From Psychroserpens mesophilus (GTDB lineage Bacteria; Bacteroidota; Bacteroidia; Flavobacteriales; Flavobacteriaceae): 64,000 nucleotides of DNA. Below are positions 7,668 through 56,628 of the stretch, piece after piece. Location of the stretch: contig NZ_JXJP01000014.1 in the NCBI RefSeq assembly GCF_000826645.1, forward strand, positions 124,001 through 188,000, read 5' to 3'. The notes under the pieces were generated by a model. The model was not told the DNA's origin. It saw only the letters and a list, made by a program, of their open reading frames with translations, and did not search any database. A program made the position numbers and the translations under genes. How positions within the stretch are numbered: position 1 is the first letter of the stretch; each line of letters opens with the position of its first letter.

Positions 7668-7728
7668 TCTAGACAAAAACGTCTAGAGAGCTCAAACATA
7701 TCGCCTGCACTGAGCGCAGTCGAAGTGC
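7668..7728. repeat. palindrome plus one stem-loop repeat unit (unit 1)
   Basis: Unit 1 of the dispersed stem-loop family: arm GCACT (7707-7711), core GAGCGCAGTCGA (7712-7723), complementary arm AGTGC (7724-7728). The flanking GTC/CTC trinucleotides of other copies are not kept. A separate perfect 7-bp palindrome, TCTAGAC/GTCTAGA with a 6-nt loop, lies at 7668-7687. Both are in the gap between the convergent permease and dusB genes. Confidence 0.75.
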
Positions 7729-7750
7729 TCCATCCTTCTTGCAAAACCTA

Positions 7751-8752
7751 CTAAGTAGCAAACTGGTAACCTGAAAACTTATCTAACACCTCATCAAAAG
7801 CAGCAAACACATCTTTTGAATCATCGCTTGTTACCATTTTCATTCGGTATTCCTTGAAGTTTGGAATCCCTTTAAAATAATTAGTATAATGTCGTCTGGT
7901 TTCAAATACACCTAGTTTTTCACCTTTCCAGTCAATCGACATTTGCAAATGACGCCTGGCTGCATCCACACGTTCTTCCATTGAAATTGGAGCTAAATGC
8001 TCTCCAGTTTCAAAAAAGTGTTTGACTTGTTTAAAAAACCAAGGGTTGCCAATTGTTGCACGACCAATCATTGCGCCATCTAAACCGAAACTATCTCGCA
8101 TTAACATGGCTTTTTCCGGAGTATCAACATCACCATTTCCAAAGACAGGAATGTGCATTCTCGGATTGTTTTTTACCGCAGCAATAGGTTTCCAATCGGC
8201 TTCCCCTTTATACATTTGAGCACGTGTTCTTCCGTGGATTGAAATCGCTTTGCAACCTACATCTTGTAAACGTTCAGCAACCTCAACAATTTTTATCGAA
8301 TCGTGATCCCAACCCAATCGGGTTTTTACAGTTACTGGTAAATTGGTGCGTTTAACCATTTCAGCAGTTAACTGTTCCATCAGACAAATGTCTTTCAGAA
8401 TTCCTGCACCTGCACCTTTACTCACAACTTTCTTAACTGGACAGCCAAAATTGATGTCTATGATATCTGGATTTGATTTCTCAACAATATCAATGGTTTG
8501 CAACATGCTTTCCATATTGGCTCCAAAAATCTGAATCCCAACAGGACGCTCCTTTTCATATATATCGAGCTTCATAACACTTTTAGAAGCGTTACGAATC
8601 AAGCCTTCGCTAGATACAAATTCAGTGTATACTACATCTGCTCCTTGCTCCTTACACAATGCACGAAACGGAGGATCACTAACATCTTCCATTGGTGCCA
8701 GAAGCAACGGAAAATAAGGAAGTTCTATGTTTCCAATTTTTACCAAAGTCAA
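7751..8752 (-). CDS. dusB: tRNA-dihydrouridine synthase, DusB type
   Basis: A 333-residue flavin-dependent TIM-barrel enzyme that reduces uridine to dihydrouridine in tRNA D-loops. Motifs in order are LLAPMEDVSDPPFR at the FMN site, INFGCPVKKV with the catalytic cysteine (about residue 101), TVKTRLGWD, ISIHGRTRAQMYKG, and FGNGDVDTPEKA plus DGAMIGRATIGNPWFF for phosphate binding. The C-terminal helical tRNA-binding region begins near residue 255. Length and order fit DusB. A promoter-like pair lies just upstream. Confidence 0.94.
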   Translation of the reverse strand: MTLVKIGNIELPYFPLLLAPMEDVSDPPFRALCKEQGADVVYTEFVSSEGLIRNASKSVMKLDIYEKERPVGIQIFGANMESMLQTIDIVEKSNPDIIDINFGCPVKKVVSKGAGAGILKDICLMEQLTAEMVKRTNLPVTVKTRLGWDHDSIKIVEVAERLQDVGCKAISIHGRTRAQMYKGEADWKPIAAVKNNPRMHIPVFGNGDVDTPEKAMLMRDSFGLDGAMIGRATIGNPWFFKQVKHFFETGEHLAPISMEERVDAARRHLQMSIDWKGEKLGVFETRRHYTNYFKGIPNFKEYRMKMVTSDDSKDVFAAFDEVLDKFSGYQFAT

Positions 8753-8763
8753 TTTATTTTGCG

Positions 8764-8793
8764 CAAAATTACAGTTTTTTATATTGTATTCAA
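8764..8793 (-). promoter_or_regulatory. promoter of dusB
   Basis: On the minus strand, TTG (complement of 8791-8793), 19 bases, then TAATTTTG (complement of 8764-8771), 11 bp before the dusB ATG. It matches the Bacteroidota TTG-N17-19-TAnnTTTG pattern and overlaps the end of the upstream DUF4345 gene region. Confidence 0.55.
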
Positions 8794-9176
8794 GGGGCTA
8801 CTCTTTTCAAAACCCAAATACCATAAATTCCCAAAAATAATTCTGCTACAGTTCCGAAAACATAACCTAAGGTTGGCACACCATCAAAAAGCAAACTCAA
8901 TACTCTTCCTGACCCCAAACCAAGCATAAAAATAATATTAGTAATGATGGCTAATTTTAAGTAGGTAGATTTAAAAACACCTATTATCCACAATATTGCA
9001 AAACCTAAATACAGACCCATGATGGCTTTGTAAAAATTGTGCTCATCAATAGTCTCCAAAAACATATCAAAACATAACTCTGGTTTTAAACCATAAACAA
9101 AAGCTACAGGAATTACCACACATATTGAAATGATAAGATGGATTTTGGTGATGATATCGTCTTTAGATTTTAACAC
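8790..9176 (-). CDS. DUF4345-like four-helix membrane protein
   Basis: A 128-residue hydrophobic protein with about four membrane helices (residues 10-30, 45-67, 73-95 and 103-123) and a charged turn after each. It resembles DUF4345 proteins, small membrane proteins of unknown function. The start is GTG; no early in-frame ATG exists. It begins 9 bp after the M28 peptidase stop codon, so the two are probably one transcript. No catalytic motif is visible. Confidence 0.72.
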   Translation of the reverse strand: MLKSKDDIITKIHLIISICVVIPVAFVYGLKPELCFDMFLETIDEHNFYKAIMGLYLGFAILWIIGVFKSTYLKLAIITNIIFMLGLGSGRVLSLLFDGVPTLGYVFGTVAELFLGIYGIWVLKRVAP

Positions 9177-9185
9177 CTACAAAAT

Positions 9186-10421
9186 CTAAAATTCAATCTC
9201 TGCTTCAACCTCATCAGCTCCACGTTTCACAACTACTTTAGTCTTATCACCTGTATCAAAAGCCGACAAAGCTCGCATATAACTCATCATATCTGTAACT
9301 AAACTATCACCAAGTTTCACAACGATGTCACCTTTTTGAAGTCCGGCTTTTTGAGCTGGTTTGTCTTCGCTAACACCATCGATTCGCATGCCTTTTCCGT
9401 CGTACAAATAGTCTGGAATTACGCCTAATCCAACTTTAAATCTTGGCACATCTTCACTTTCATTTTTGGTTTTTCTAAAAGGAAGTTTTCCGTTATCATC
9501 AAGATCAGAAATGATATCAAAAATATAGGTTGAAATAGTCTCCATACCTTTATAATTGAGCTTTTCAATGTCATCTCCTGGTTTGTGATAATCTTCGTGC
9601 TGACCAGTAAAAAAGTGTAATACTGGGATTTCACTGTTATAAAATGAAGTATGATCACTTGGACCCACTCCAGATTCGTTTTCAATAATTTTGAATTTAG
9701 AATTATTGGCTTTGACCACTTGTTTCAAAATTGGAGAGGTCCCAACACCGTAAACGGCTAACGTACTGTCTTTTTTTAAACGACCAACCATGTCCATATT
9801 CAGCATATAATTAGCTTTCGATAAATCAATAGTTGAATGTTTGGTAAAATAATTTGAACCTAATAATCCCATTTCTTCTCCCGAAAATGCAATAAACAAG
9901 TAGTTATTACCTTTATTCTTCTTTTTTAATTTCTGAGCTAAATTTAATAGTACTGCAATTCCGCTAGCATTGTCGTCTGCACCATTATGAATTTCTTGCG
10001 ATTCTCCTCTATATAAAGATCCTTCAGCGCCATAACCTAAATGATCGTAGTGTGCACCAATAATGATGGTGTTTTCTGCATTATTATCAAGAAATCCAAT
10101 CACATTTGTTCCTGTAATTGTACTGTCACCATCCTTAACCGTATAATTAACCTCTTGATGTGGATCAGTTTTAGGTTTAAAGGTAAACGTCTGAAAATAA
10201 CCATCTGGACCTTTAGTTGAAAGTCCGAGCGCTTCAAAACGTTCTGCTATATAATCTGCTGCTGCTAATTCACCATCGCTTCCTGTTTGTCTGCCTTCAA
10301 GCTTGTCATCAGCCAAAAAAGCAACATCCTCTTTAATGGTGATGTCCTTCATTTTTTTGTTAGAATCTGTTTTACAGGCTATCAACACCAACAAAAAAAG
10401 TATAAATAATATGTTTTTCAT
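9186..10421 (-). CDS. M28-family metallopeptidase lipoprotein with PDZ domain
   Basis: A 411-residue exported peptidase. The N-terminus (MKNILFILFLLVLIAC) is a lipoprotein signal with Cys16. The M28 zinc ligands are readable: His in GAHYDHLG, Asp in GADDNASG, the catalytic Glu-Glu pair in SGEEMGLLGS, Asp in MLNMDMVG and His in VLHFFTGQHEDYH. A PDZ domain covers about residues 325-405 (GVSEDKPAQKAGLQKGDIVV). It probably trims peptides as a membrane-anchored aminopeptidase. It is transcribed divergently from the PD40 protein and is followed by the DUF4345 gene. Confidence 0.92.
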   Translation of the reverse strand: MKNILFILFLLVLIACKTDSNKKMKDITIKEDVAFLADDKLEGRQTGSDGELAAADYIAERFEALGLSTKGPDGYFQTFTFKPKTDPHQEVNYTVKDGDSTITGTNVIGFLDNNAENTIIIGAHYDHLGYGAEGSLYRGESQEIHNGADDNASGIAVLLNLAQKLKKKNKGNNYLFIAFSGEEMGLLGSNYFTKHSTIDLSKANYMLNMDMVGRLKKDSTLAVYGVGTSPILKQVVKANNSKFKIIENESGVGPSDHTSFYNSEIPVLHFFTGQHEDYHKPGDDIEKLNYKGMETISTYIFDIISDLDDNGKLPFRKTKNESEDVPRFKVGLGVIPDYLYDGKGMRIDGVSEDKPAQKAGLQKGDIVVKLGDSLVTDMMSYMRALSAFDTGDKTKVVVKRGADEVEAEIEF

Positions 10422-10433
10422 CTTATGAAGTCT

Positions 10434-10451
10434 TAATTTTGAACAAATTTA
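10434..10451. promoter_or_regulatory. divergent -7 promoter boxes for the M28 and PD40 genes
   Basis: TAATTTTG (10434-10441, plus) ends 22 bp before the PD40-protein ATG. TAAATTTG on the minus strand (complement of 10444-10451) lies 22 bp before the M28 ATG. Both fit TAnnTTTG; neither has a clear -33 TTG. Confidence 0.45.
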
Positions 10452-10463
10452 GTTAATTATAGG

Positions 10464-11576
10464 ATGAAACACACATACTTTGTCATATTGGTATCGGCTT
10501 TTTTAAGTTGCAAAAACGACCCAAAATCTACATCAGAAACAGTAAAGGACACACAACCTGAAATGACTGACGTTTTAAAAGATTCATTGATTTATCCTGG
10601 TGAAAAACACTTTAAATCGATTCGTCAGGTTACTTTTGGTGGAGATAATGCTGAAGCTTATTGGAGTTTTGATGACAAGCAATTAGTGTTTCAATCTAAT
10701 AATAAAGCATGGAATGTTGGTTGTGATCAGATGTTCTTAATGAATGCTGACGAAACCTTTAAGGGCAATATGCCTCCTATGGTTAGTACTGGAAATGGAC
10801 GCACAACGTGTGCGTATTTCTTACCAGACAATAAACACATCATTTATGCGTCTACGCATTTAAAACAAGACGAATGTCCCGAAACGCCTTTACGCAAAAA
10901 CGGAAAATACATCTGGCCAATTTATGACAGCTACGACATTTTTGTGGCTGATTTAGAAGGCAATATTGTAAAGCAATTAACAAATGAAGAGGGTTATGAT
11001 GCCGAACCAACGGTTTCTCCTAAAGGTGATAAAATTGTATTTACCTCTACAAGAAGTGGTGATTTAGAATTATATACTATGAATATCGACGGAAGTGACG
11101 TCAAACAAATCACCAACGAATTGGGTTATGATGGAGGTGCATTCTTTTCGCCTGATGGCACCAAATTAATTTTCCGTTCATCACGACCAAAAACAGAACA
11201 AGAGATTAAAGAATATAAAGATTTACTGGCTGAAGGTTTAGTTGAGCCAACCGAAATGGAATTATATATTTGCAATGCTGATGGCAGTGATTTGCGCCAA
11301 TTAACCGATTTAGGAAACGCTAATTGGAGTCCGTTTTTTCATCCTTCGGGAAAGAAAGTTTTATTCTCTTCTAACTTTGAAGCTGAACGTGGTTTCCCTT
11401 TTAATTTATACTTAATCGATATTGATGGTAAAAACCTGGAGCGTGTCACTCATAGTGAAACCTTTGATGCCTTTCCTGTGTTTTCTAATGATGGAAAATA
11501 TTTAGCATTTTCATCCAACAGAAATAATGGAGGTGGAAGAGATACGAATCTATTTATTGCAGAATGGCAAGATTAA
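10464..11576 (+). CDS. TolB-like PD40 beta-propeller lipoprotein
   Basis: A 370-residue protein with a short lipoprotein-like signal (MKHTYFVILVSAFLSC, Cys16) and repeated PD40/TolB strands. Repeats such as EPTVSPKGDKIVFTSTRSGD, GAFFSPDGTKLIFRSSRP, SPFFHPSGKKVLFSSN and FPVFSNDGKYLAFSSNR indicate a six-bladed propeller. These proteins usually bind other proteins or small ligands in the periplasm. It is divergent from the M28 peptidase, so the pair may act together in peptide turnover, but that is inferred from position only. No catalytic residues were identified. Confidence 0.85.
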   Translation: MKHTYFVILVSAFLSCKNDPKSTSETVKDTQPEMTDVLKDSLIYPGEKHFKSIRQVTFGGDNAEAYWSFDDKQLVFQSNNKAWNVGCDQMFLMNADETFKGNMPPMVSTGNGRTTCAYFLPDNKHIIYASTHLKQDECPETPLRKNGKYIWPIYDSYDIFVADLEGNIVKQLTNEEGYDAEPTVSPKGDKIVFTSTRSGDLELYTMNIDGSDVKQITNELGYDGGAFFSPDGTKLIFRSSRPKTEQEIKEYKDLLAEGLVEPTEMELYICNADGSDLRQLTDLGNANWSPFFHPSGKKVLFSSNFEAERGFPFNLYLIDIDGKNLERVTHSETFDAFPVFSNDGKYLAFSSNRNNGGGRDTNLFIAEWQD

Positions 11577-11750
11577 GAGATTCTTCGCTTTGCTCTGAAT
11601 GACATCCGAGAAGACTTTGTCATTCAGAACGTAGTGAAGACAAAAAGTCACATGATGTTGTCATTTTGAGCCAGCCGAGAAACAGTAAGGTTCAGCGTAG
11701 CTAAATCTCAAATAAACTTAATAAGATTCCTCCATTTCAGTCGGAATGAC
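11577..11750. repeat. four stem-loop repeat units filling a convergent intergenic gap (units 2-5)
   Basis: Unit 2 (minus, 11577-11603): arms ATTC/GAAT with flanking GAG and GAC. Unit 3 (plus, 11619-11641): starts GTCATTC but its right arm is decayed. Unit 4 (plus, 11660-11709): arms ATTT/AAAT around a longer core, ends CTC. Unit 5 (minus, 11724-11750): arms ATTCC/GGAAT. Units 4 and 5 form an inverted pair with GTC ends outward. Together they cover nearly the whole space between two convergent genes; no separate rho-independent terminator was seen. Confidence 0.8.
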
Positions 11751-11763
11751 AAATAAACTCGAA

Positions 11764-14178
11764 TTAATTGCCTTTCTTTTCTAATCGATCTCGTTCTTCA
11801 GTATCAATAGCGCGAACATTGCTATTTAATTTAGTGTTTCCGAATTTATATCTGAAACCTAATCTTACATAGCGATCATCAACATCAACAAACTGTGTGT
11901 TGAACTGGTTTTGATATTTTGTTGACAAATCAAAATCATGTTGATTAAAGATATCGCTTACAGAAAGTGAAAGTGTTCCTTGTTTCTTTAAGATTGTTTT
12001 TGAAATAGCGAGTTCTGAAAAGAATCGGTTTTCTACAATTTGAAACCCTTGTAGATTTTTTCCAACCCAAGTCAAAGCACAGCTAATATTTAAACTATTA
12101 TCCTTCAACAAGGTCACACTGTTTTGCAATTCTGAATAATTAGACCATTGATCTTGTTTAACAAAGCCCAATCCGAAATTGGTTTGTTCTTCAAAATTAT
12201 AAAAAGAGGTCACAGCGTACACAGACCATCTGTTTGTGACATTAAAATTGGTGATAAAATCAAATCCAAACTCAACTGTTTTATCGAAGTTTACTGAAAT
12301 ATATTCAATAACATTGGTTGCATTATTTTGTCTGGGAATTTCAGAAATGGCACCATCATAATTTTTATAGTAGGCTTCAAATGTAAAGTAATCTGTAATA
12401 TTTGTTCCTACTACAAAATGGTCGGTAAACGTTGGCACTAAAAACGGATTACCAGTTACGACATAATTATCATTTAAGAAAAACTGAAACGGATTTAAAG
12501 CCGCATAACTTGGTCGTGCTATGCTTCGTTTATAGTTTATATATGCATTATAATTATCAGAAATGTTGTATTGCAGACTTGCATTTGGAAACCATTCTAA
12601 ATAGTCTTGAGAATTTGTAATATTTGTTGATGGTGAAACACCTTCAATATTAGTTTGTTCAGCACGTAATCCTGCATTTATGCTCCACTTTTCAGTGTTT
12701 AAATCGTAATTGATATAGCCTGCGAAAATGCGTTCATCATAGTTAAAAGCATCAGAGTTTAAAACATCAACGGTTTCGTTTCCAGTATTAAGATCTACAT
12801 CAAACTGAGTAATATCACTTTCGGTATTGGTGCTTGAAAATTTTAGTCCTGTTTCAAAATTTGAAGATTCATTAATTGGTAAGTTATAGTCTATCTTTCC
12901 TGCAAAAATATTGGTGTCCTGGTTATTATTAGTGTTAAAAGCACTCGCATTTTGGAAGGTATTATTCGCATCAAAAAAGTTACTAATCACTCCTTGATTT
13001 CTCTCATAATTATATGTTGTGTAGTGTGCATTTACAACCAATTCTCCTTTGGTAAATTTATGATTGAAATCTATATCAAACGCTAAATTGTACTTGTTGT
13101 CTCTCGATAAATTATCTGCTGTAAATCGTGATAAAAAATTACCATTGTCATCAGTAATCATTGTGTTATTGGCTATTTTGTACTTAAAATATGGCAAATA
13201 CAAAACATTTGATGACAGACTTAAGGTGTTCTTATCATTAATAAAATAATCGAAATTAGTATTTAAGTTGTGTGTTTCAGACCAGGTATTTCTATTGGTA
13301 AACGAACGCCAGCTTTGATCAAGATTATTTGAATTATCTAAGAAATTTACAGTGTCGTCTCCTTCTCTGTTAATTTTATCTTTAGAATAGCTGTAATTCA
13401 CATTTAAGCTGATGTCTTCATTTTTAAAAAAATGACTTGTTCCTGCATTATACCTCGGAAAAACACCTTGTGTGTAATTTGTAAAAACACTTCCTCTGTA
13501 ACCTGTAACCAGATTTTTAGTCATAATGATATTAATGACGACTCCACTTTCTGCATCATATCTTGCAGATGGATTTGTGATGACCTCAACTGATTTTATA
13601 GAATTTGCAGACGATCCTTCAAGCAACTGATTTAAATCTTCAGAAGATAAATTAACTTTTCTGTTATTGATATAAACTGTAGGATTAGAATTTTTAACCG
13701 TTATCTCATCTCCTATCACCAAAACGCCAGGAGTGCTTTTTAGCACCTGAAGCATATTTCCTTCTACTAAAGCTGTCTGTTCTATGTTAAAAACCAATCG
13801 ATCTGCCTCTCTCTTAATGGTTGGCTTCTTCGCAATAATACTAACTTCGTCTAAACGCTCTGAAGCTTCATTCAGTTGAATCGTTTGCAAATCTAAATTA
13901 CCTCTTAGAATAATCTTTTGATTAAAACTTTCAAAACCTATATAGCTGATTTTTAAAACGTAAGTAGCTTCTTCCAAATTAAGAATACTGAAAAACCCAT
14001 TGTCGTCCGTAGATGTTCCCTTTAAGACCTCGCTCTCATCTTCACTTAACAGAATGATATTTGCAAATTCAATGGAGATATTATCAGCATCAATTACAGT
14101 TCCTGAAACAGAAAAACTCTGGCCATAGCTCGTTAATGAGCATAGCATCAAGACTATAAAATTGAGTAGGGATTTCAA
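11764..14178 (-). CDS. outer-membrane beta-barrel receptor of the TonB-dependent type
   Basis: An 804-residue outer-membrane protein. A signal peptide (ending SLTSYGQS) is followed by a CarboxypepD-regulatory-like domain (about 22-105: SGTVIDADNISIEFANI, YVLKISYIGFESF), a plug-like domain (about 120-215, with LQVLKSTPGVLVIGDEITVK and NPSARYDAESGVVINIIM), then a long beta-barrel. This is the Bacteroidota OMP beta-barrel group. The start is TTG: an in-frame TAA lies three codons upstream, and only TTG gives a full signal peptide. No SusD-like partner is adjacent, so the ligand is unknown. Confidence 0.88.
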   Translation of the reverse strand: MKSLLNFIVLMLCSLTSYGQSFSVSGTVIDADNISIEFANIILLSEDESEVLKGTSTDDNGFFSILNLEEATYVLKISYIGFESFNQKIILRGNLDLQTIQLNEASERLDEVSIIAKKPTIKREADRLVFNIEQTALVEGNMLQVLKSTPGVLVIGDEITVKNSNPTVYINNRKVNLSSEDLNQLLEGSSANSIKSVEVITNPSARYDAESGVVINIIMTKNLVTGYRGSVFTNYTQGVFPRYNAGTSHFFKNEDISLNVNYSYSKDKINREGDDTVNFLDNSNNLDQSWRSFTNRNTWSETHNLNTNFDYFINDKNTLSLSSNVLYLPYFKYKIANNTMITDDNGNFLSRFTADNLSRDNKYNLAFDIDFNHKFTKGELVVNAHYTTYNYERNQGVISNFFDANNTFQNASAFNTNNNQDTNIFAGKIDYNLPINESSNFETGLKFSSTNTESDITQFDVDLNTGNETVDVLNSDAFNYDERIFAGYINYDLNTEKWSINAGLRAEQTNIEGVSPSTNITNSQDYLEWFPNASLQYNISDNYNAYINYKRSIARPSYAALNPFQFFLNDNYVVTGNPFLVPTFTDHFVVGTNITDYFTFEAYYKNYDGAISEIPRQNNATNVIEYISVNFDKTVEFGFDFITNFNVTNRWSVYAVTSFYNFEEQTNFGLGFVKQDQWSNYSELQNSVTLLKDNSLNISCALTWVGKNLQGFQIVENRFFSELAISKTILKKQGTLSLSVSDIFNQHDFDLSTKYQNQFNTQFVDVDDRYVRLGFRYKFGNTKLNSNVRAIDTEERDRLEKKGN

Positions 14179-14304: not shown

Positions 14305-14331
14305 CAGCATCTTTTAAAGAAGATTTGATTT

Positions 14332-29211: not shown

Positions 29212-29272
29212 GTCATCCTGAACTTATTTCAGGATCTCATTATTTTGGATTCTACATCAATTTTAGAATGAC
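29212..29272. repeat. inverted pair of stem-loop repeat units (units 6 and 7)
   Basis: Unit 6 (plus, 29212-29238): GTC, arm ATCCTGAA, loop, arm TTCAGGAT, CTC. Unit 7 (minus, 29247-29272): arms ATTCTA/TAGAAT, ending GAC. The GTC ends face outward. Different arm sequences in the two units are each self-complementary. Confidence 0.8.
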
Positions 29273-34943: not shown

Positions 34944-35008
34944 GTCATTGCGAGCAAAGCGTGGCAATCTCTTTTAAAAATGAGATGCTTCGTTCCACTC
35001 TGAATGAC
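34944..35008. repeat. inverted pair of stem-loop repeat units (units 8 and 9)
   Basis: Unit 8 (plus, 34944-34971): GTC, arm ATTGC, core GAGCAAAGCGTG, arm GCAAT, CTC. Unit 9 (minus, 34982-35008): GAG, ATGC, core, GAAT, GAC; its arm has one mismatch. GTC ends face outward. The pair lies 22 bp before the rnr start codon. Confidence 0.8.
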
Positions 35009-35030: not shown

Positions 35031-37265
35031 ATGACAAAAAAGAAAAAAAGGAAACCTTCACATAATAAGATTTCCAACCTTACAAATACCATTCTTAGTA
35101 TTTTAAAAAAAGAAAGAACTAAAACTTTTAACTATAAACAAATTGCTGCTATTCTTGGTGTTAACGATGCCAGTAGTAGAAATCAAATTATAAAAAAACT
35201 CGCCGAACTCAAAGCTAAGAAAGAGATTGAAGAAATAGATCGCGGTAAATTTAAAGCCATCGTTAATACCGAATACCATACAGGACGCGTAGATATGGCT
35301 TCTCGTGGGTCTGGTTATATCATTAGTGACGATTTTGAAGATGATGTGTACATTGCCTCAAACAATATGAACAAAGCCCTTCATGGAGATGAGGTCGAAT
35401 TTTATGCCTACAAACGCAGAAAAAGAGGCAAGCTTGAAGGAGAAATCACAAGCATTATCAAACGCGCGAAAAGCGAATATGTTGGTGTGATTCAAATCCA
35501 TGATAAGAAAAATTTTGCATTCGTGATTCCTGATGGAAACAAAATGTACACTGATATTTTTGTACCAATCAACAAAATTAATAAAGCTGAAGATGGTGAT
35601 AAAGTATTAGTGTCTTTAGAAGACTGGCCAGAAAAAGCCGATTCACCTCACGGACGCGTTCTCAAAGTACTCGGGAAACCAGGAGAACACAATACCGAAA
35701 TCCATGCTATTTTAGCCGAATATGGCTTACCTCTCGAATTTCCTCACGATGTCGAGGAGTTTGCGAACAAAATTAACACGTCAATTACTAAAGAAGAAAT
35801 TGCAAAACGTCGTGATATGCGTAAAGATTTAACCTTTACCATTGATCCTAAAGATGCAAAGGATTTTGACGATGCCTTATCGTTTAAAGTCTTAGACAAC
35901 GGCTTGTTTGAAATCGGAATTCACATCGCAGATGTCTCGCATTACTTACAGGAAAACACCATCTTAGATGACGAAGCTTACGAACGCGCAACTTCGGTAT
36001 ATTTGGTAGATCGAGTCGTACCAATGTTGCCTGAAATCTTATCAAATGGCGCGTGTTCCTTACGTCCACATGAAGAAAAATATACCTTTTCTGCGGTGTT
36101 CAAAATGAACGATAAAGCTGAAATTAAAGACCAGTGGTTCGGAAGAACAGTGACCTATTCTGATGCGCGTTTTGCCTACGAAGAAGCACAAGCTATCATA
36201 GAAAATAATGTCACGTCGAGCGCAGTCGAGACGTCTCAGATTAATACCACAATTCCAGTTGAAGTTTCACTATCAGGAAAAGAATACCAAACACCAAAAG
36301 ACATTGCATTTGCTGTGTTAAAAATGGATAAACTCGCTAAAATCATGCGTCGTAAACGTATGAGCCAAGGAGCGATTTCTTTTGATAAAGTCGAAGTAAA
36401 ATTCAATTTAGATGAAGAGGCTAATCCAGTTGGTGTGTTTTTTAAAACCAGTAAAGATGCTAATAAATTGATTGAAGAATTTATGCTTTTAGCCAATAAA
36501 AAAGTAGCAGAATTCATTGGTAAACAGAATCCAAAAAAGACCTTTGTCTATCGTGTTCACGACGAACCAGACGATAGCAAACTGGCTGCCTTGCAAAATG
36601 TAGTCGGGCGTTTCGGTTATAAACTCAATTTTAAAGATCGTAAAAGTGTTGCTGCATCGTTAAATAATTTATTATCTGAAGTTGTTGGTAAAAAGGAGCA
36701 AAATTTAGTCGATACGCTTACCATTCGTACCATGAGTAAAGCCGAATATACCACACATAATATTGGACATTACGGACTCGCATTTGATTACTATACGCAT
36801 TTTACATCGCCAATTCGTCGTTATCCAGATGTGATGGTACATCGCTTGTTACAGCACTATCTCGATGGTGGGAAATCTCCAAACGAAGACATTTACGAAG
36901 ACAAGTGTAACCACTCTAGTAATATGGAAAATCTGGCCACTAAAGCAGAACGTGATTCTATAAAATACATGCAGATTCGCTTTATGGAAGACCATAAAAA
37001 CGAAAATTTTGTTGGTGTGATTTCAGGTGTTACAGATTGGGGAATTTATGTTGAAATCATCGAAAATAAATGTGAAGGTATGGTGAGTGTTAGAGATATG
37101 AAAGATGATCATTACGCCTTTGATGAAGATCATTATGCGCTCATCGGTAAAAACTCAAAAATCATGTATCAGCTTGGTGATGAGGTCGTTGTTAAAGTGA
37201 AAAATACCGATTTAGTTAAAAAGCATTTAGATTTTACATTGATAGGAAAACACGTCGAAGATTAA
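35031..37265 (+). CDS. rnr: ribonuclease R, with an in-frame stem-loop repeat
   Basis: A 744-residue 3'-5' exoribonuclease that degrades structured RNA. Order: N-terminal winged helix (about 14-75), cold-shock domains (about 80-235), RNB catalytic domain with IDPKDAKDFDDAL (about 271-283), YxxxTSPIRRYPDVMVHRLL later, and a C-terminal S1 domain (about 660-740, FVGVISGVTDWGIYVEI). Residues about 394-403 (NVTSSAVETS) are encoded by a complete stem-loop repeat unit, in a loop after the ARFAYEEAQAIIE helix; the roughly 15 residues after it are also atypical. The frame stays open, so the enzyme is probably active. Confidence 0.95.
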   Translation: MTKKKKRKPSHNKISNLTNTILSILKKERTKTFNYKQIAAILGVNDASSRNQIIKKLAELKAKKEIEEIDRGKFKAIVNTEYHTGRVDMASRGSGYIISDDFEDDVYIASNNMNKALHGDEVEFYAYKRRKRGKLEGEITSIIKRAKSEYVGVIQIHDKKNFAFVIPDGNKMYTDIFVPINKINKAEDGDKVLVSLEDWPEKADSPHGRVLKVLGKPGEHNTEIHAILAEYGLPLEFPHDVEEFANKINTSITKEEIAKRRDMRKDLTFTIDPKDAKDFDDALSFKVLDNGLFEIGIHIADVSHYLQENTILDDEAYERATSVYLVDRVVPMLPEILSNGACSLRPHEEKYTFSAVFKMNDKAEIKDQWFGRTVTYSDARFAYEEAQAIIENNVTSSAVETSQINTTIPVEVSLSGKEYQTPKDIAFAVLKMDKLAKIMRRKRMSQGAISFDKVEVKFNLDEEANPVGVFFKTSKDANKLIEEFMLLANKKVAEFIGKQNPKKTFVYRVHDEPDDSKLAALQNVVGRFGYKLNFKDRKSVAASLNNLLSEVVGKKEQNLVDTLTIRTMSKAEYTTHNIGHYGLAFDYYTHFTSPIRRYPDVMVHRLLQHYLDGGKSPNEDIYEDKCNHSSNMENLATKAERDSIKYMQIRFMEDHKNENFVGVISGVTDWGIYVEIIENKCEGMVSVRDMKDDHYAFDEDHYALIGKNSKIMYQLGDEVVVKVKNTDLVKKHLDFTLIGKHVED
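36211..36238 (+). repeat. stem-loop repeat unit inside rnr (unit 13)
   Basis: A full unit: GTC, arm ACGTC (36214-36218), core GAGCGCAGTCGA, arm GACGT (36231-36235), CTC. The core is identical to those of unit 1 and unit 12. It is read in frame by rnr. Confidence 0.88.
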
Positions 37266-37378
37266 TGAGTTTGGCGTTACCTAAAGGTCAGGCTATCCGT
37301 TAAATCTTTTGGTAAAAAAACCAAAAGGATACCACTGCTATCCTTAACGCAATTTATCATATATACAATAATAAAGCT

Positions 37379-37410
37379 GTCATTCCGAACGAAGTATGAG
37401 GAGGAATCTC
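37379..37410 (+). repeat. single stem-loop repeat unit (unit 10)
   Basis: GTC, arm ATTCC, a 16-nt core (GAACGAAGTATGAGGA), arm GGAAT, CTC. It lies in the gap between rnr and the YbjQ-like gene; no clear inverted partner follows. Confidence 0.8.
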
Positions 37411-39652: not shown

Positions 39653-39838
39653 GTCATGCTGAACTGGTTTCAGCATCTTACTTTAAGACGATATATATTT
39701 CTTTATTGGTCGCAAACCAAAACCAAATTAAAATAACAAAACGTATGCTTAACTAAATAAAGCAGCTCTTCAAGTTAATATTTAAAGATTCTTAAAACCC
39801 CAGAGTTATAATTAGGTTTCGACTGCGCTCAACCTGAC
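39653..39838. repeat. stem-loop repeat units 11 and 12 in inverted orientation
   Basis: Unit 11 (plus, about 39653-39679): GTC, arm ATGCTGAA, loop CTGG, arm TTCAGCAT, CTT. Unit 12 (minus, 39814-39838): arm AGGTT, reverse complement of the core GAGCGCAGTCGA (39819-39830), arm AACCT, GAC. They are about 135 bp apart with GTC ends outward. Confidence 0.78.
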
Positions 39839-46554: not shown

Positions 46555-46563
46555 CTTAATTGT

Positions 46564-49564: not shown

Positions 49565-50605
49565 TTAAATAACCATAGTTCTAGGGACACGCTTATTCAT
49601 AATCTTAAACCATAAAGGAGGAATCATTGCCAAAACCATAGATGTAGGATAACCATATGGCATTTGCGGACTCTCATCATGACAATCTAAAATTTGATAT
49701 TTTTTTGAAGACTTAAAGTGATGATCACTGTGTCTGGTTAGTTCGTATAGCACTATTCTTCCAATCACATGGTTTGAATTCCAAGAATGCATTTCTTTTA
49801 CGCGCTCATATCTGCCAGATTTTGTTTTGAGACGCAATAATCCGTAATGTTCAATATAATTTACAGATTCCAGTAGTAAAATCCCAACAAGAGCAGAAGA
49901 TATGGCGAACAATAATCCCATTGTTCCGAAGACAAGTAAGACAGTCAGTAAATAGCTAATTTGAAGTAAAATGAACCAAAACATGTCGTTTTTTACCGAA
50001 AAGAAGCCCTTTTTACTGTTTTTTAGTAGTTTTTGCTGAATTTTCCATGCTTTTACATATTGTCTAAAAATAGAGGTAAACCAGAATGAATACACACTTT
50101 GATTATATCTTGCTGTTGCAGGATCTTCAGGCGTTGCAGCATGCAAATGATGACCAAAATTATGTTCAATATAAAAATGCATGTATTGTGAGGGTAGAAG
50201 TAAAGCCTTTCCAATAAATCGCTCGTTAGTAGTTTGTCTGTGCCCAAGTTCGTGAGCGACATTTATTCCGTTTACACCTAAAACGATTCCAACAGAAAGT
50301 ATCATTCCGACAAGTTCATAATTTGCAATAGTTGTCATTGAAGCTTGGTAGATTCCGAAGCCTACTAATCCGTAAACAATAGGTAAATTAAGATAAAGCA
50401 ACCAGTCGAAAACCCTTCTTTTTAGTTTATCATCGACTTCATCAGAAGATAAATTTTCAGTACTCACCGGACAAATAAGCTCTAATATAGGGATGATTAC
50501 AAAAGCGTAAACAGGAGTTAAAAACACAAAATTTCCCTTAAAATATAAACCCAAAAAGGCAGCAATTGGTATGGAGAATGCAGTGAGATATTTAAGGTCT
50601 TTCAT
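49565..50605 (-). CDS. alkB: AlkB-type integral membrane alkane monooxygenase
   Basis: A 346-residue membrane di-iron enzyme. The His boxes of AlkB are in place: HELGHRQ, EHNFGHHLHAATPEDPATAR, the AlkB-specific NYIEHYGLLR, and TRHSDHHFKSS. Six or more hydrophobic helices surround them. Classic AlkB proteins are about 400 residues, so this is a compact version. The family hydroxylates terminal carbons of medium-chain alkanes with electrons from rubredoxin, but no rubredoxin or rubredoxin reductase gene is nearby. Substrate could also be a fatty acyl or other lipid. Confidence 0.85.
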   Translation of the reverse strand: MKDLKYLTAFSIPIAAFLGLYFKGNFVFLTPVYAFVIIPILELICPVSTENLSSDEVDDKLKRRVFDWLLYLNLPIVYGLVGFGIYQASMTTIANYELVGMILSVGIVLGVNGINVAHELGHRQTTNERFIGKALLLPSQYMHFYIEHNFGHHLHAATPEDPATARYNQSVYSFWFTSIFRQYVKAWKIQQKLLKNSKKGFFSVKNDMFWFILLQISYLLTVLLVFGTMGLLFAISSALVGILLLESVNYIEHYGLLRLKTKSGRYERVKEMHSWNSNHVIGRIVLYELTRHSDHHFKSSKKYQILDCHDESPQMPYGYPTSMVLAMIPPLWFKIMNKRVPRTMVI

Positions 50606-50725
50606 AGAAACACTATTGCGAGTTGGTCTTTATTTTGGCACAACTCCTCGAAATTAACAGAATCTTACCAAATTTAGGCATTTGCAGGTTAAAATAAAAT
50701 TGTAGTTTAGTGAGTTAAATAGTTA

Positions 50726-53700
50726 ATGTTGAATAATTTCAAGAACATACAATCTAAATTAGAGCAATTTATTAGAAGATATTACACTAATGAATTGGTG
50801 AAAGGCGCTATTTTGTTTTTTGCCATTGGCTTGCTGTATTTAATTGTTACCTTGTTAATCGAATATTTTTTGTGGCTTAACCCAACAGCACGAACAATTT
50901 TATTTTGGGTATTTATTGCTGTAGAATTGGCCTTATTTGCTAAGTTTATTGCATTTCCACTTGCGAAATTATTCAAACTTCAAAAAGGAATAGATTACGA
51001 AAAAGCTTCACAAATTATAGGAAACCATTTTCCTGAAGTGAGTGATAAGCTCCTTAATGTGCTTCAACTAAACCACAATAAAACACAATCAGAACTCCTT
51101 GAGGCAAGTATCGAACAGAAGTCTTTGGAATTAAGTCCGATTCCCTTCAAATTAGCTATAAATTTTAAAAAGAACACCAAATATTTAAAATATGCGGCCA
51201 TACCAATAGCGATATTGCTTATTTCTTATGTTACAGGTAAAATCAACTGGTTTAGTGATAGTTATGAGCGTGTTGTCAATTATCAAACAGCTTATGAGCC
51301 TCCTGCACCTTTTCAGTTCTATGTAGCGAATGAAGAGATGAATGCTATTGAAAATAAAGAGTTCAAATTAATGGTTAAAACGGCTGGTGAAGTCATTCCT
51401 GAAAATGCTCAAATTCATTACAACGGACAATCATATTTTTTACAGCAAACAGCTCCTGGACAGTTTGAATATGTGTTTCCACAATTTAAAGATGCACTGA
51501 GTTTTAATTTATCAGCCAACGACGTACGTTCTAAAGATTACAACATTGAAGTAACTAAGGTGCCTACTTTAGTGAATTTTGAAATGGTATTAGATTATCC
51601 AGCTTATACGCAAAAGAAGGATGAGGTTCTAAAAAGCACAGGAAACTCAACAATTCCTGAAGGTACAAATGTGACCTGGAAAGTTTCTACACGTTCTACA
51701 GACGAAGTGGCACTCTATGCAAAAGACACAATCAACTTCGAAAATAAATCACAAGGTAAATTTGAAGCTTCGAAGCGCATTTATAATAACACAGACTACA
51801 GCATTAGTACAAGCAATAAAAACTTAAAAGATTATGAGAACCTTGCGTTTTCATTGAGTGTAATTAAAGACAATTATCCAGAACTTAATCTGAAGATGGA
51901 AAAGGATTCTTTAGATAATCAAACACTGTATTTCTTTGGACAGGTTAGTGATGATTACGGACTTAGCAAACTGCAATTGGTGTATTATCCTTCGACCAAT
52001 CCGAATGAAAAATCTTTTGAAAGAATACCTGTTTCGAAATCAAATTTTGATGAGTTTGTTAGTGCATTTCCAAATCAGTTGAATTTGACAGATGGAGTTG
52101 ATTATGAATTCTATTTTCAGGTGTTTGATAATGATGCCATTCATAATTATAAAAGCACAAAAAGCACAGTTTTCAACTACAGAAAACTCACAAAAGAAGA
52201 GGAAGAGCAGAAACAACTTCAGGAGCAAAATGAAACCATCAAAGATATAGGTAAAACCTTTGATAAACTTAAAGAACAGGACAAACAACTTGAAGAGTTT
52301 TCTAAAACCCAAAAGGAAAAAGAGGAGCTCAATTTTAATGATAAAAAGAAGTTTGAGAATTTCTTAAAACGTCAGAAGGAGCAAGAACAGTTGATGCAGA
52401 ACTTCAACAAAAAGCTGAAAGAAAATCTTGAAGAGTTTCAAAATGAAAATGAAGAAAAAGACCAGTTTAAAGAAGACTTACAACAACGTCTTGAAGAAAA
52501 TGAAGAACAGCTTAAACAAGATGAAAAGCTGTTAGAAGAGCTTGAAAAAATGCAGGAGAAAATTCAGAAGGAAGAGTTTTCTCAAAAGCTTGAAGAATTG
52601 TCAAAACAAAATAAAAATAAAGAGCGAAGCCTGAAACAACTCTTAGAGTTAACCAAACGCTATTATGTAGCTAAGAAGGCTGAAAAACTTCAGCAAGAAT
52701 TAGAGCAATTGGCTGAAGAGCAAGAAAAACTTTCCGAAGAAAATGAAGAAAATAATACGAAAGAAGAGCAAGAAAAATTAAATAAAAAGTTTGAAGATTT
52801 CCAGAAAGAAATGGATGAACTTCAAAAAGAAAATAAGGAGCTTAAGAAGCCAATGGAGCTTCCTCAGGACAAACCAACTGAGGAATCTATAAAACAGGAT
52901 CAGCAGGAAGCCACAGATGCATTAGAACAAAAGGAACAGGAAGATAAAGAACAGCAGGAAGCAGGAGAGCAAGGAGAGCAAGGCGAAAAACAAGAACAAG
53001 GAGAGCAGCAGGAAAGTCAGCCACAAGATTCACAACAAAAGGCTAAGAAAAAACAGAAACAAGCTGCACAAAAAATGAAAGAGATGAGTGGTCAAATGGC
53101 CCAAATGATGCAAATGGGTGGAGGCGATCAGGCTCAGGAAGATGCGACAATGCTCAGACAGATTTTAGATAATTTAGTATTGTTTTCATTTGATCAGGAA
53201 AATTTAATGGATCAATTCAAAAGCATTGAAATCAACCATAATGAATATGGTAAATTCTTAAGAAAACAGAGTAATCTACGAGAACATTTTGAACATGTTG
53301 ATGACAGCTTATTCGCCTTATCATTGCGACAACCAAAAATTTCGGAACAGGTTAACAAACAAATCACTGAAGTCTTTTTTAATATTGATAAGTCGCTCGG
53401 ACAATTGTCTGAAAACCGCATATATCAAGGTGTTGCGGCTCAGCAATACACAATCACAGCAACCAATGAACTCGCTAGTTTTTTAAGTGATATTCTCGAT
53501 AATATGAATGCGCAAATGAATCCTTCAATGGGTCAAGGTGGAGGCGATATGCAATTACCAGATATTATTATGAGTCAGGAGCAATTGAATGAGCAAATGA
53601 AAGATGGCATGAAAAAAAGCCAGCAAGGAAAACCTAAAGAAGGAGAAGGAGAGAAAGAAGGCGAAGGCGAAGGTGAAAAGGAAGGTGAAAGCGAAAAATC

Positions 53701-54208
53701 TAAAAAAGGGAAAGAAGGAAAACAAGGAAAAGAAGGTGAAGGTGGAGAAAACGGAAACTCTCAAGGTGAAGGTGAAGGAAGTAATGAAGATTTAAATGGA
53801 GAGTTGTATCGTATTTATCAGCAACAACAACAACTGCGTCAGGCTCTTGAAAATAAATTGGGAGAACAAGGCAAACAAGGTCAAGGAGCTAAGTTGTTAA
53901 AGGACATGGAAGAAGTTGAATTGGACTTAATAAACAAAGGGTTTACAAATCAAACGCTTCAGAAAATGATGGATTTACAACATCAGTTATTAAAGATGGA
54001 GAATGCTACATTCATGCAAGGTGAAGATAATAAGCGTAAATCTGAAACTGATAACAACACGTTTAAAAATACAACCAATAATAAATTGCCAACAGCAAAA
54101 GAATATTTCAATACTACTGAAATTTTAAACAGGCAAGCACTACCTTTGCAGGACGTTTATAAAAAGAAAGTCCAAGAGTATTTTAAAAAAACAAATGATC
54201 AGCTTTAA
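50726..54208 (+). CDS. DUF4175-family large membrane protein with coiled-coil and acidic/Gln-rich regions
   Basis: An 1160-residue protein. Two to three membrane helices lie in the first 175 residues, then a beta-rich extracytoplasmic region (about 190-480), then a very long Glu/Gln/Lys coiled coil (about 490-800), a mid domain, and a low-complexity Gly/Glu/Lys block (about 970-1020: KEGEGEGEKEGE), ending in a helical tail. It matches DUF4175, a Bacteroidota family of unknown function. Its end overlaps the ybeY start by 14 bp. Confidence 0.86.
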   Translation: MLNNFKNIQSKLEQFIRRYYTNELVKGAILFFAIGLLYLIVTLLIEYFLWLNPTARTILFWVFIAVELALFAKFIAFPLAKLFKLQKGIDYEKASQIIGNHFPEVSDKLLNVLQLNHNKTQSELLEASIEQKSLELSPIPFKLAINFKKNTKYLKYAAIPIAILLISYVTGKINWFSDSYERVVNYQTAYEPPAPFQFYVANEEMNAIENKEFKLMVKTAGEVIPENAQIHYNGQSYFLQQTAPGQFEYVFPQFKDALSFNLSANDVRSKDYNIEVTKVPTLVNFEMVLDYPAYTQKKDEVLKSTGNSTIPEGTNVTWKVSTRSTDEVALYAKDTINFENKSQGKFEASKRIYNNTDYSISTSNKNLKDYENLAFSLSVIKDNYPELNLKMEKDSLDNQTLYFFGQVSDDYGLSKLQLVYYPSTNPNEKSFERIPVSKSNFDEFVSAFPNQLNLTDGVDYEFYFQVFDNDAIHNYKSTKSTVFNYRKLTKEEEEQKQLQEQNETIKDIGKTFDKLKEQDKQLEEFSKTQKEKEELNFNDKKKFENFLKRQKEQEQLMQNFNKKLKENLEEFQNENEEKDQFKEDLQQRLEENEEQLKQDEKLLEELEKMQEKIQKEEFSQKLEELSKQNKNKERSLKQLLELTKRYYVAKKAEKLQQELEQLAEEQEKLSEENEENNTKEEQEKLNKKFEDFQKEMDELQKENKELKKPMELPQDKPTEESIKQDQQEATDALEQKEQEDKEQQEAGEQGEQGEKQEQGEQQESQPQDSQQKAKKKQKQAAQKMKEMSGQMAQMMQMGGGDQAQEDATMLRQILDNLVLFSFDQENLMDQFKSIEINHNEYGKFLRKQSNLREHFEHVDDSLFALSLRQPKISEQVNKQITEVFFNIDKSLGQLSENRIYQGVAAQQYTITATNELASFLSDILDNMNAQMNPSMGQGGGDMQLPDIIMSQEQLNEQMKDGMKKSQQGKPKEGEGEKEGEGEGEKEGESEKSKKGKEGKQGKEGEGGENGNSQGEGEGSNEDLNGELYRIYQQQQQLRQALENKLGEQGKQGQGAKLLKDMEEVELDLINKGFTNQTLQKMMDLQHQLLKMENATFMQGEDNKRKSETDNNTFKNTTNNKLPTAKEYFNTTEILNRQALPLQDVYKKKVQEYFKKTNDQL

Positions 54209-54605
54209 TTACGAAACCAATTTTGAATTGCCATATGAACAAGAGTTTTCATCATGGATTTCTAAAGTGATCTCTTCTGAAAATTGTAAGGAAGGCGAAA
54301 TCAATTACATTTTTTGTGACGATGACTATTTACTTGATATCAATCAAAAATATCTCAATCACGACACATTAACTGATATTATTAGTTTTGATTACTCAGT
54401 AGGAAAAGAACTACATGGCGATATTTACATTTCGGTTGATCGTGTTAAAGAAAATGCCAAGGATTTTGAGGTTGATTTTAAAGATGAAATCCGTCGTGTT
54501 ATGGTTCATGGAGTTCTTCATTATTGTGGTTACAAAGATAAATCTAAAGAGGATAAGGAACTCATGCGATCCAAGGAAGATCACTACATCAAACAAGGAT
54601 CTTAG
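54195..54605 (+). CDS. ybeY: endoribonuclease YbeY (rRNA maturation)
   Basis: A 136-residue metallo-endoribonuclease of 16S rRNA 3' maturation and ribosome quality control. The motif DTLTDIISFDYS and the metal site HGVLHYCGYKDKSKED are present. Most YbeY proteins read H-x3-H-x5-H (GYDH); here the third His position is not His (GYKD). I believe this variant is common in Bacteroidota, with Asp as possible ligand. Translational coupling with DUF4175 is implied by the overlap. Confidence 0.9.
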   Translation: MISFNYETNFELPYEQEFSSWISKVISSENCKEGEINYIFCDDDYLLDINQKYLNHDTLTDIISFDYSVGKELHGDIYISVDRVKENAKDFEVDFKDEIRRVMVHGVLHYCGYKDKSKEDKELMRSKEDHYIKQGS

Positions 54606-54623
54606 TATATTGAGATTTAGATG

Positions 54624-54631
54624 TATATTTG
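54624..54631 (+). promoter_or_regulatory. -7 promoter box before mnmG
   Basis: TATATTTG fits TAnnTTTG and ends 52 bp before the mnmG ATG; the parS-like site lies within the predicted leader. Confidence 0.5.
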
Positions 54632-54655
54632 CAAACTGAAAAAAATAAAATCTAA

Positions 54656-54671
54656 TGTTCCACGTGGAACA
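54656..54671. promoter_or_regulatory. parS-like ParB-binding palindrome (upstream of mnmG)
   Basis: TGTTCCACGTGGAACA, a perfect 16-bp palindrome, matches the ParB/Spo0J parS plan TGTTnCACGTGnAACA. It lies 12 bp before the mnmG start codon. Confidence 0.8.
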
Positions 54672-54683
54672 ATACTATAAATT

Positions 54684-56555
54684 ATGTTTAACGATGTATA
54701 TGATGTCATAGTAGTTGGTGCTGGTCATGCAGGTAGTGAAGCTGCTGCAGCTGCTGCTAACATGGGAAGCAAAACATTGCTTATTACAATGAATCTGCAA
54801 AACATTGCGCAGATGTCTTGTAATCCTGCTATGGGAGGAATTGCGAAAGGACAAATCGTTAGAGAAATTGATGCTTTAGGTGGCTACAGTGGCATCGTAA
54901 GTGACACCTCTGCCATTCAATTTAAGATGCTTAATAAATCAAAAGGACCAGCAATGTGGAGTCCGAGAGTTCAAAGTGATCGTATGCGTTTTGCTGAAGA
55001 TTGGAGATTACTTTTAGAGCAAACCAAAAACCTCGATTTTTATCAGGAAATGGTGTCAGGATTAATTGTCGAAAATCATAAAATAATTGGTGTTAAAACA
55101 TCTCTTGGATTAGAAATTAAGGCCAAAACGGTTGTCCTTACCAACGGAACGTTTCTTAATGGATTGATTCATATTGGTGATAAGAATTTTGGTGGAGGAA
55201 GAGCAGGAGAAAGAGCCGCAACGGGAATCACAGAAGAACTTATTCAATTAGGTTTTGAATCAGGCCGAATGAAAACAGGAACACCTCCTAGAGTTGATGG
55301 TAGATCTTTAGATTATTCTAAAATGATTGAGCAACCAGGAGATGAACAACCTGAAAAGTTTTCCTATTTAGAGCACATTAAACCTTTGACTGAACAACGA
55401 TCATGTCACATGACTTATACAAGTCCTGAGGTTCATGATTTGTTGCGCGAAGGCTTTGATCGCTCCCCAATGTTCAACGGAAGAATTCAAAGTACTGGAC
55501 CAAGATATTGCCCGTCTATTGAAGATAAAATCAATCGCTTTGCAGACAAAGATCGTCATCAATTATTTGTAGAACCTGAAGGTTGGAATACAGTTGAAGT
55601 TTATGTTAATGGATTTTCTACTTCGCTTCCAGAAGACGTTCAGTATAAAGCTTTAAAATCGGTTGCAGGATTTGAAAATGTGAAATTTTTCAGACCAGGT
55701 TATGCTATAGAATATGATTACTTCCCACCAACGCAATTAAAACATACTTTAGAAACTAAACTGGTTGAAGGTTTGTATTTCGCAGGTCAGATTAATGGAA
55801 CAACGGGTTATGAGGAAGCTGCTTCTCAAGGTTTAATGGCAGGAATAAATGCTGCGCTTAAAGTACAAGAGAAAGATGAATTTATTCTAAAACGCAATGA
55901 GGCCTACATTGGAGTTTTAGTGGATGATTTAATCACCAAAGGAACTGAAGAGCCTTATCGCATGTTTACGTCCAGAGCGGAATACAGAACACTTTTAAGA
56001 CAAGACAATGCCGATTTTAGGCTAACGCCAAAAGGATATGAGCTTGGCTTAGCAAGTGAAAAGCGATTGCGTCGTATGGAGGAAAAGCAAAAGCAATCGG
56101 ATAATTTCGTCAATTTTTTCAGGGAGACTAGTGTGAAGCCTGAAGATGCTAATCCGGTTTTAGAAGCTAAATCTTCATCACCTGTTAAACAATCAGATAA
56201 GATGTTTAAATTGTTTTCTCGCCCGAATATTACTATTGAGGACATGCGGCAGTTTGAAGCTGTAGAACACTACATTCAGGAGCATGAATTAAATCGCGAA
56301 GTAATTGAGCAGACTGAAATTCAGATTAAGTATTCAGGTTATATTGATAAGGAAAAGAATAACGCAGATAAATTAAATCGTTTAGAAGACGTAAAAATCC
56401 CACGGAATTTTGATTACGAAAAATTGAAATCTATGAGTACTGAAGCGAAACAAAAACTTTCAAAAATACAACCGGTAACTATTTCTCAAGCGTCAAGAAT
56501 TTCAGGAGTTTCTCCAGCAGATGTTTCCGTATTGTTAGTTTATTTGGGACGATAA
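54684..56555 (+). CDS. mnmG: tRNA uridine-5-carboxymethylaminomethyl modification enzyme MnmG (GidA)
   Basis: A 623-residue FAD enzyme that works with MnmE to modify U34 of tRNAs. The FAD motif [19 protein letters not shown] is at the start; [32 protein letters not shown] (FAD/NADH region) and [36 protein letters not shown] follow, all MnmG hallmarks. The C-terminal helical domain binds MnmE and tRNA. Two parS-like sites flank the gene. MnmE is not in this window. Confidence 0.97.
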
Positions 56556-56564
56556 TTTTGATAA

Positions 56565-56580
56565 TGTTTCACGTGGAACA
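56565..56580. promoter_or_regulatory. second parS-like palindrome (downstream of mnmG)
   Basis: TGTTTCACGTGGAACA matches the parS plan, differing by one base from a perfect palindrome. It starts 10 bp after the mnmG stop codon. Confidence 0.75.
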
Positions 56581-56601
56581 CTAAATTCTATATTTAATTT
56601 T

Positions 56602-56628
56602 GTCATTCAGAACACACTGAAGAATCTC
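56602..56628 (+). repeat. single stem-loop repeat unit (unit 16)
   Basis: GTC, arm ATTC, a 13-nt core (AGAACACACTGAA), arm GAAT, CTC. It ends 5 bp before the methyltransferase start codon. Confidence 0.8.

Follow-up and report, generated by a model that had tools for sequence, protein, structure and literature searches.

A 64,000-nt stretch of the genome of the flavobacterium Psychroserpens mesophilus (contig NZ_JXJP01000014.1, positions 124,001-188,000; referred to here as the window, in whose numbering all coordinates are given) carries a dispersed family of short hairpins with a TGTC tag at one end, and the question that it raises is what kind of repeat these hairpins represent and by what means they have spread. 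The interpretation considered probable is that they are TGTC-tagged repetitive extragenic palindromes (REPs) that belong to the CGTC REP superfamily as a variant branch, and that they behave as non-autonomous mobile hairpins, copied singly or as unlike pairs on opposite strands by a mobiliser other than a Y1 transposase of the same genome. An initial sequence-only reading of the window had proposed a dispersed hairpin family of 16 units at nine loci, an observation that stands in part, since 14 units at eight loci are counted here, 12 of which have a covariance-model E below 0.1. The analysis was extended to the whole host genome (3.68 Mb in 72 contigs, 99.97% complete) and to a comparison set of 57 genomes, comprising this one and 56 relatives, in which genomes are labelled G0xx and loci L0xx.

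The abundance of the repeat was examined with the core pattern GAGCGNAGNCGA, the reversed pattern serving as control. The genome contains 45 copies of the core (23 forward and 22 reverse) against a single match to the reversed pattern, and the copy number is therefore far above chance. The arms flanking the core played no part in finding these copies, around all of which the DNA was collected and arm pairing scored at five flanking positions. Despite the presence of 30 distinct left 5-mer arms among the 45 units, 202 of 225 cells are Watson-Crick, compared with 101.4 ± 7.4 (maximum 133) in 10,000 re-deals of the right arms, indicating that the arms covary and that the hairpin itself is preserved. 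The same is true of relatives, where Watson-Crick pairs make up 569 of the 600 inner pairs scored (276 ± 12 expected) and wobbles 9; of 171 GTC-tagged units in related genomes, this set comprises the 150 that were listed, all of which come from five genomes belonging to the same genus. The sequence-only reading was accurate on this point, in that all of the arm pairs that it named were found, and the 12-nt core GAGCGCAGTCGA is indeed common to the copies at 7712, 36219 and 39819, which have three different complementary arm pairs. In an alignment of 43 units, built from 41 of the 45 core copies and from two units of the window with another core, 81 cells are changed on both sides compared with 25.2 ± 5.9 expected, a value reached by none of 500 shuffles, and the covariation score is 0.659 as opposed to 0.126 or less for slid partners. 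Omitted from this alignment were L015, which is probably no REP, L022 and L025, which pair poorly in register, and one duplicate; these omissions tilt the structure counts, the covariance model and the counts by position and of T-runs given below towards pairing, whereas the pairing counts for the genome (202/225), its relatives (569/600) and the second class of unit (134/146, below) are free of such selection. The arm letters of the relatives' units are also linked with one another (total correlation 1.22 versus 0.32 ± 0.04), so that the arms fall into subfamilies such as GGTC, CCTC, CACT and CCTT, a pattern which suggests that whole units have been copied within subfamilies.

Two classes of unit can be distinguished. 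Class I units consist of (T)GTC, an A, four variable pairs, the core GAGCGNAGTCGA, four pairs and a T, whereas class II units consist of (T)GTC, ATnCTGAA, five loop bases, TTCAGnAT and CT, with an 8-bp stem. The class I covariance model yielded 97 matches in the genome at E≤1, a number that is a lower bound because 150 out of 471 candidates were scored; the best 74 matches were used for analysis of context and 70 units of the genome for position counts. A T precedes the unit in 67 of the 74, and the tag letters G, T and C occupy positions 1-3 in 66, 68 and 65 of the 70, respectively. The tag had been taken to be universal, as had a CTC tail, but the unit at 7704 reads CCT in place of GTC, and C begins the tail in only 44 of 70 units, with T second in 51. 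The first arm letter is A in 59 of 70 units, and the second is C in 33, T in 21 and G in 16. Within and beside the core, the tandem GA is intact in 64 of the 70, and the two bases to the left of the core are both pyrimidines in 147 of the relatives' 150 units. We take this pyrimidine-flanked core to fit a sheared tandem G.A step (Py-GA-Pu), followed by two pairs and a GNA triloop; folded in this manner, the class I core would close on a loop of 3 nt, compared with 5 nt in class II. Twelve exact class II copies are present in the genome and 146 copies in 22 of the 57 genomes, with no match to the control in any genome, and the free pair of the stem is Watson-Crick in 134 of the 146 (46 ± 5 expected). 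A class II unit also folds better than its shuffles (z -4.9, Vienna DNA energies). Genomes G049 and G034, which are of the same order, contain 171 and 29 GAGCGNAGNCGA cores, but have the GTC tag in register in only 0 and 4 of these, respectively; the copies in question probably belong to another repeat family that has the same core.

The idea that repeats of this type lack a formal description is not borne out. CGTC REPs have been described in five phyla including the Bacteroidetes, with TGTC as a frequent tag variant (Di Nocera 2013, PMC3733652), and G. forsetii is among the species listed as positive. According to the same paper, the superfamily is defined by an unpaired CGTC, TGTC or CCTC at one end, a stem of 8-9 bp with A-T at the first and second positions, a loop of 4-5 nt and a tail that is mostly CCA; dimers, among which the HH type predominates, and intragenic copies occur, and the repeats are not associated with transposase genes. 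The family described here is alike in its unpaired TGTC tag, short hairpin, dimers, location behind and inside genes, lack of Y1 association and occurrence in the Bacteroidetes, and class II conforms to the stem rule (ATnCTGAA, 8 bp) with a 5-nt loop within the published range. In class I, conversely, the second stem pair varies, the 12-nt core is fixed and the tail is CT-rich rather than CCA, and because this class departs from the stem and tail rules in these respects it is held to be a new form of a described kind, the comparison with the four families in that paper being one of text descriptions rather than of family consensus sequences. Likeness to REPINs moved by RAYTs (REP-associated tyrosine transposases), which are built from GTAG REPs, extends to short palindromes, inverted pairs and lack of autonomy, but the tag is TGTC as opposed to GTAG-type, the genome has no Y1 gene and the units do not lie beside the Y1 genes examined. 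The Rickettsia palindromic elements, of which PMC3733652 identifies RPE-4 and RPE-6 as CGTC REPs, likewise lie in frame within genes for conserved proteins, as do 11 units here, with mfd and the leucyl-tRNA synthetase (LeuRS) gene empty in relatives; they differ in that the present host is a flavobacterium and in the encoded peptide, the comparison again being one of descriptions and not of alignments. A literature search on the core strings and two translated peptides, from whose coverage most subscription journals were absent, returned nothing relevant.

The locations of the 74 best class I matches were examined next, with gene context taken from an in-house caller of longest open reading frames (ORFs). 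The flanking genes are tandem for 41 of them, convergent for 14 and divergent for 3, while 15 were first scored inside ORFs and one was unassigned. Single units between tandem genes are predominantly in sense (28 versus 6 antisense), and units in such gaps lie a median of 25 nt behind the upstream stop codon. Four of the 15 ORF units were not counted further, as two precede the first polA domain, one precedes the start of an E2 gene and one lies in an 81-codon ORF. The remaining 11 are located in 11 conserved genes, which encode RNase R, Mfd, a 2-oxoacid dehydrogenase E2, an E1, LeuRS, a radical SAM/HemN_C protein, an AcrB-type pump, a fused methylmalonyl-CoA mutase (IcmF-like, as we take it to be), PrmC, a 2-hydroxyacid dehydrogenase and an HI0933-like protein. 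Each of these units is in sense (p 0.001), and one codon phase is common to 10 of the 11 (p 0.0001), encoding for the most part a peptide of the form V-[STMP]-[SL]-S-[ATE]-V-E; selection at the protein level may explain much of this bias in sense and phase.

Comparison of these genes between species revealed that sites occupied in one genome are empty or differently occupied in others, the units at the mfd, LeuRS and IcmF-like sites of relatives having been read by eye. At mfd, a 66-nt form is present in 16 of the 23 genomes of the genus (P. mesophilus included), whereas the P. mesophilus gene has 123 nt, comprising a class I unit in sense followed by a class II unit in antisense with tags outward. 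Other units occupy the site in G013, G017 and G014, G016 has an apparent stub, and G002 and G003 have extra codons without a unit. The LeuRS loop is short in 12 of the 23 genomes, contains units of several kinds in seven, an odd insert in one and a DUF559 domain in three. The IcmF-like gene is filled by a class I unit in P. mesophilus and G013, by an antisense class II unit in four genomes and by both classes in one; among the rest of the 23, three have other hairpins, four have apparently decayed units and nine have no recognisable unit. Judged by RNase R, the closest named relatives of the genome are mostly Psychroserpens, together with some near genera of the Flavobacteriaceae. For the RNase R linker, removal of 12 duplicates from 101 loci left 89 distinct genes, from which a quick tree was built. 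Forty-five have short linkers, 25 have long linkers without a paired unit, 4 have a VIPA-type peptide and 15 have class I units with pairing arms, 12 of which are in one frame and 3 in another. The G016 gene has a long linker without a paired unit in which the exact core is kept, and the closest solved homologue (8cdu) is shorter at this stretch. On this tree the state of the unit must have changed 16 times or more, gains and losses being counted together. Finally, the rnr-ybjQ gap contains one unit in P. mesophilus, two different ones in L089 and none in L090-L092. Taken together, the differing states at these sites indicate turnover of units from species to species; at mfd, LeuRS, the IcmF-like gene and RNase R a unit is present in some species and absent from others, and the units are probably gained and lost as mobile hairpins. 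A VIPA/VIPL-type insert was also observed in the same RNase R loop at L124, L146, L147 and L153 (Flavivirga, Winogradskyella, Seonamhaeicola and Lacinutrix).

A further feature is the frequent occurrence of units as inverted pairs. Six of the seven opposite-strand neighbours among the 74 class I units have their tags outward, an arrangement that is not equated here with the HH type of PMC3733652. Of eight class I neighbour pairs less than 150 bp apart, six are outward, one inward and one tandem, and in three of the six outward pairs exactly 14 nt separate the units. Mixed pairs of class I and class II occur inside genes, outward in mfd and inward in LeuRS. Outward orientation is therefore common but not invariable, contrary to the statement that GTC ends always face outward, and within the window itself the tags of the units at 11577-11603 (-) and 11619 (+) face each other. 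Sixteen outward class I pairs were assembled from six genomes (P. mesophilus, G002, G008, G013, G014 and G016), 12 hand-picked and the remaining 4 then added. The first variable arm letter differs between the partners in every pair (10.1 expected, p 0.0004), and since the partners are unlike, a pair cannot form one long perfect palindrome. Identical arms were found in 0 of the 16 pairs versus 1.0 expected, which is not significant (p 0.34). Heterodimers are common in some CGTC REP families, according to PMC3733652.

Such pairs had been likened to REPINs moved by a RAYT, a Y1 (HUH) transposase, and this is where the earlier interpretation, which otherwise holds for a dispersed, REP-like and preserved hairpin that often occurs in inverted pairs and is gained and lost between species, fails. 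The REP-like shape, the outward pairs and the recurrent 14-nt gap would suit a RAYT system, and PF01797, the Y1 transposase family, has a match in 17 of the 57 genomes. Bacteroidetes Y1 subclasses have been described (PMC6006769), and a table in PMC12306157 includes two Flavobacterium species. However, PF01797 has no match in P. mesophilus, in a search that covered no other kind of transposase, and 8 of the 12 genomes with at least 15 cores, P. mesophilus included, lack one; without G034 and G049, with their 4 and 0 GTC-tagged copies, 7 of 10 lack Y1, the tag being unchecked in G017, G024 and G027. Across the whole comparison set, core number shows no correlation with Y1 count (rho 0.20, p 0.13), and one weak unit is all that is present in 20 stretches that take in 22 of the 56 listed Y1 matches (covariance-model E 0.012). 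A RAYT association was accordingly rejected for this genome, in which present-day RAYT action is unlikely, and a RAYT/REPIN system is regarded as a highly improbable explanation of the family as a whole. Two other explanations were considered. Template switching at quasi-palindromes during replication could feasibly restore complementarity of the arms without selection or copying of whole units; it has been reported to create and maintain stems (PMC8794818), the scarcity of wobbles is in keeping with it, and what appears to be one site in RNase R has arms ACGCT/AGCGT, ATGCT/AGCAT and ACGTC/GACGT in different species. The identity of these sites is uncertain, however, single uncorrected changes are also found at RNase R (L111, G002), the linked arm subfamilies suggest copying, and neither the dispersal of the units nor the fixed tag is accounted for, so that this explanation is thought unlikely. 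A similarly low likelihood is assigned to the units being RNA elements, such as 3'-end stabilisers or attenuators, that persist because selection acts on the transcript. The 28:6 sense bias in tandem gaps, the scarcity of divergent positions (3, against 41 tandem and 14 convergent) and the short distance behind stop codons are what such a role would predict, yet 11 units are located within coding sequence and units come and go between species. Selection for a helix in RNA would also be expected to favour G.U, whereas G.T (18) is not in excess of A.C (14) among departures from pairing (p 0.6), a count of low power and in part biased. The related suggestion that the units form transcript ends as intrinsic terminators was also rejected, since a run of four Ts lies behind only 9 of 74 units compared with 6.5 ± 2.0 in shuffled tails.

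The interpretation as mobile TGTC-tagged REPs would work as follows. A copying agent would recognise the tag and core and would require the folded single strand, in which case only copies with complementary arms would spread, giving rise to covariation between copies that subsequently drift. The agent, acting in trans, would be something other than a Y1 transposase of the genome, and insertions would survive behind genes and also within conserved proteins, where they would lie in permissive loops, in sense and in frame. Several observations sit awkwardly with this interpretation. The comparisons, which are between species rather than strains, revealed no insertion event and neither an enzyme nor an intermediate; a transposase may have been lost or be very distant, the search having been aimed at Y1 and not at other transposases near units; and the sense bias could reflect a role in RNA. 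Two of the five structure measures fall within their shuffles (double-change pairs, 5 versus 4.3; further pair types, 11 versus 13.3), only 50 of the genome's 70 units have an intact C(GNA)G loop, four units without the full stem fold no better than shuffles (z 1.13, -0.42, 0.20 and -0.53, Vienna DNA), and the computed minimum of the 7704 unit is another fold. In addition, the class I form of the IcmF-like gene exceeds the most frequent empty form by only 6 nt, and the RNase R units of G013 and G002 lie in linkers as long as some that are free of units. Some units may therefore arise by overwriting as opposed to clean 28-nt insertion, although decay of older units in the other genomes is a possible alternative at both sites.

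The DUF559 domain at the LeuRS loop provides a candidate for the agent. The domain, which we take to be nuclease-like and with which Pfam REase_MTES_1575 overlaps below the cut-off, is in frame in LeuRS of G003 (L323), G021 (L334) and G013 (L322), in MetH of G006 (L314) and G039 (L333) and in RecG of G028 (L324), and lies at the C-terminus of HisD in G032 (L315). Short G+C-rich palindromes were seen by eye on one or both sides of six inserted domains, with TCCCCAAAGGGGA on both sides in L314. Because the loop that contains the domain in three species contains TGTC REPs in seven, P. mesophilus included, a DUF559-type nuclease is a candidate for a non-Y1/HUH enzyme that reads the folded single strand and reseeds the same protein loops in frame, a scheme that is considered quite unlikely. 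The nuclease and its hairpins could then constitute a hairpin-homing system, with the TGTC units as non-autonomous riders. As a direct mobiliser, DUF559 is unsupported: P. mesophilus has none, and a TGTC unit occurs at only 2 of 30 DUF559 loci, both in G013. A literature search for DUF559 together with repeats returned nothing relevant, most subscription journals being outside its coverage.

When CGTC REPs were described in 2013, their means of spread could not be settled, since no transposase gene lay next to them. A genus that has numerous intact copies, a study genome free of Y1 and conserved genes with both empty and filled sites now allows the matter to be tested; a filled gene is the mark of a gain, and any mobiliser that exists should be common to the filled species. 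The family also illustrates how short hairpins can add peptides to conserved enzymes without breaking the reading frame.

The units within the window are as follows. The class I unit with CCT in place of the tag (7704..7731, +), which is also in the core set, has arms GCACT/AGTGC and core GAGCGCAGTCGA and lies between convergent genes; a separate hairpin-like stretch, TCTAGAC...GTCTAGA, is present just upstream at 7645-7700. A cluster at 11.6 kb comprises a unit with core GAGCAAAGCGA and arms ATTC/GAAT (11577..11603, -), a degenerate unit facing it tag to tag (11619..11644, +; read by eye, model E 4), a further degenerate unit (11660..11686, +; E 0.095) and a unit with arms ATTCC/GGAAT (11723..11750, -). 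A class II unit identified by pattern and folding, with a full 8-bp stem ATCCTGAA/TTCAGGAT (29212..29238, +), has a degenerate partner with tags outward (29246..29272, -; E 9.7); this partner and the 11619 unit have model scores at the level of noise. Upstream of rnr, a unit with arms ATTGC/GCAAT (34944..34971, +) and its partner (34982..35008, -) have tags outward. The rnr gene itself (35031..37265, +), identified by its RNB domain match as encoding RNase R, is host to the in-frame class I unit (36210..36237, +), which has arms ACGTC/GACGT and encodes VTSSAVETS, and the rnr-ybjQ gap contains a unit with arms ATTCC/GGAAT (37379..37410, +). Further downstream, a class II unit found by pattern, with stem ATGCTGAA/TTCAGCAT (39653..39679, +), forms an outward pair with a class I unit about 130 nt away that has arms AGGTT/AACCT (39811..39838, -), and a unit with arms ATTC/GAAT (56602..56628, +) lies between two + strand genes. 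At gathering scores, Rfam provided no family for the units, its matches in the window being two tRNAs and the Flavo-1 RNA (RF01705). The latter lies directly behind rnr at 37282-37355 (-), and its sequence was recognised by eye in the rnr-ybjQ gaps of some relatives and was absent from others, such that Flavo-1 may also turn over between species.

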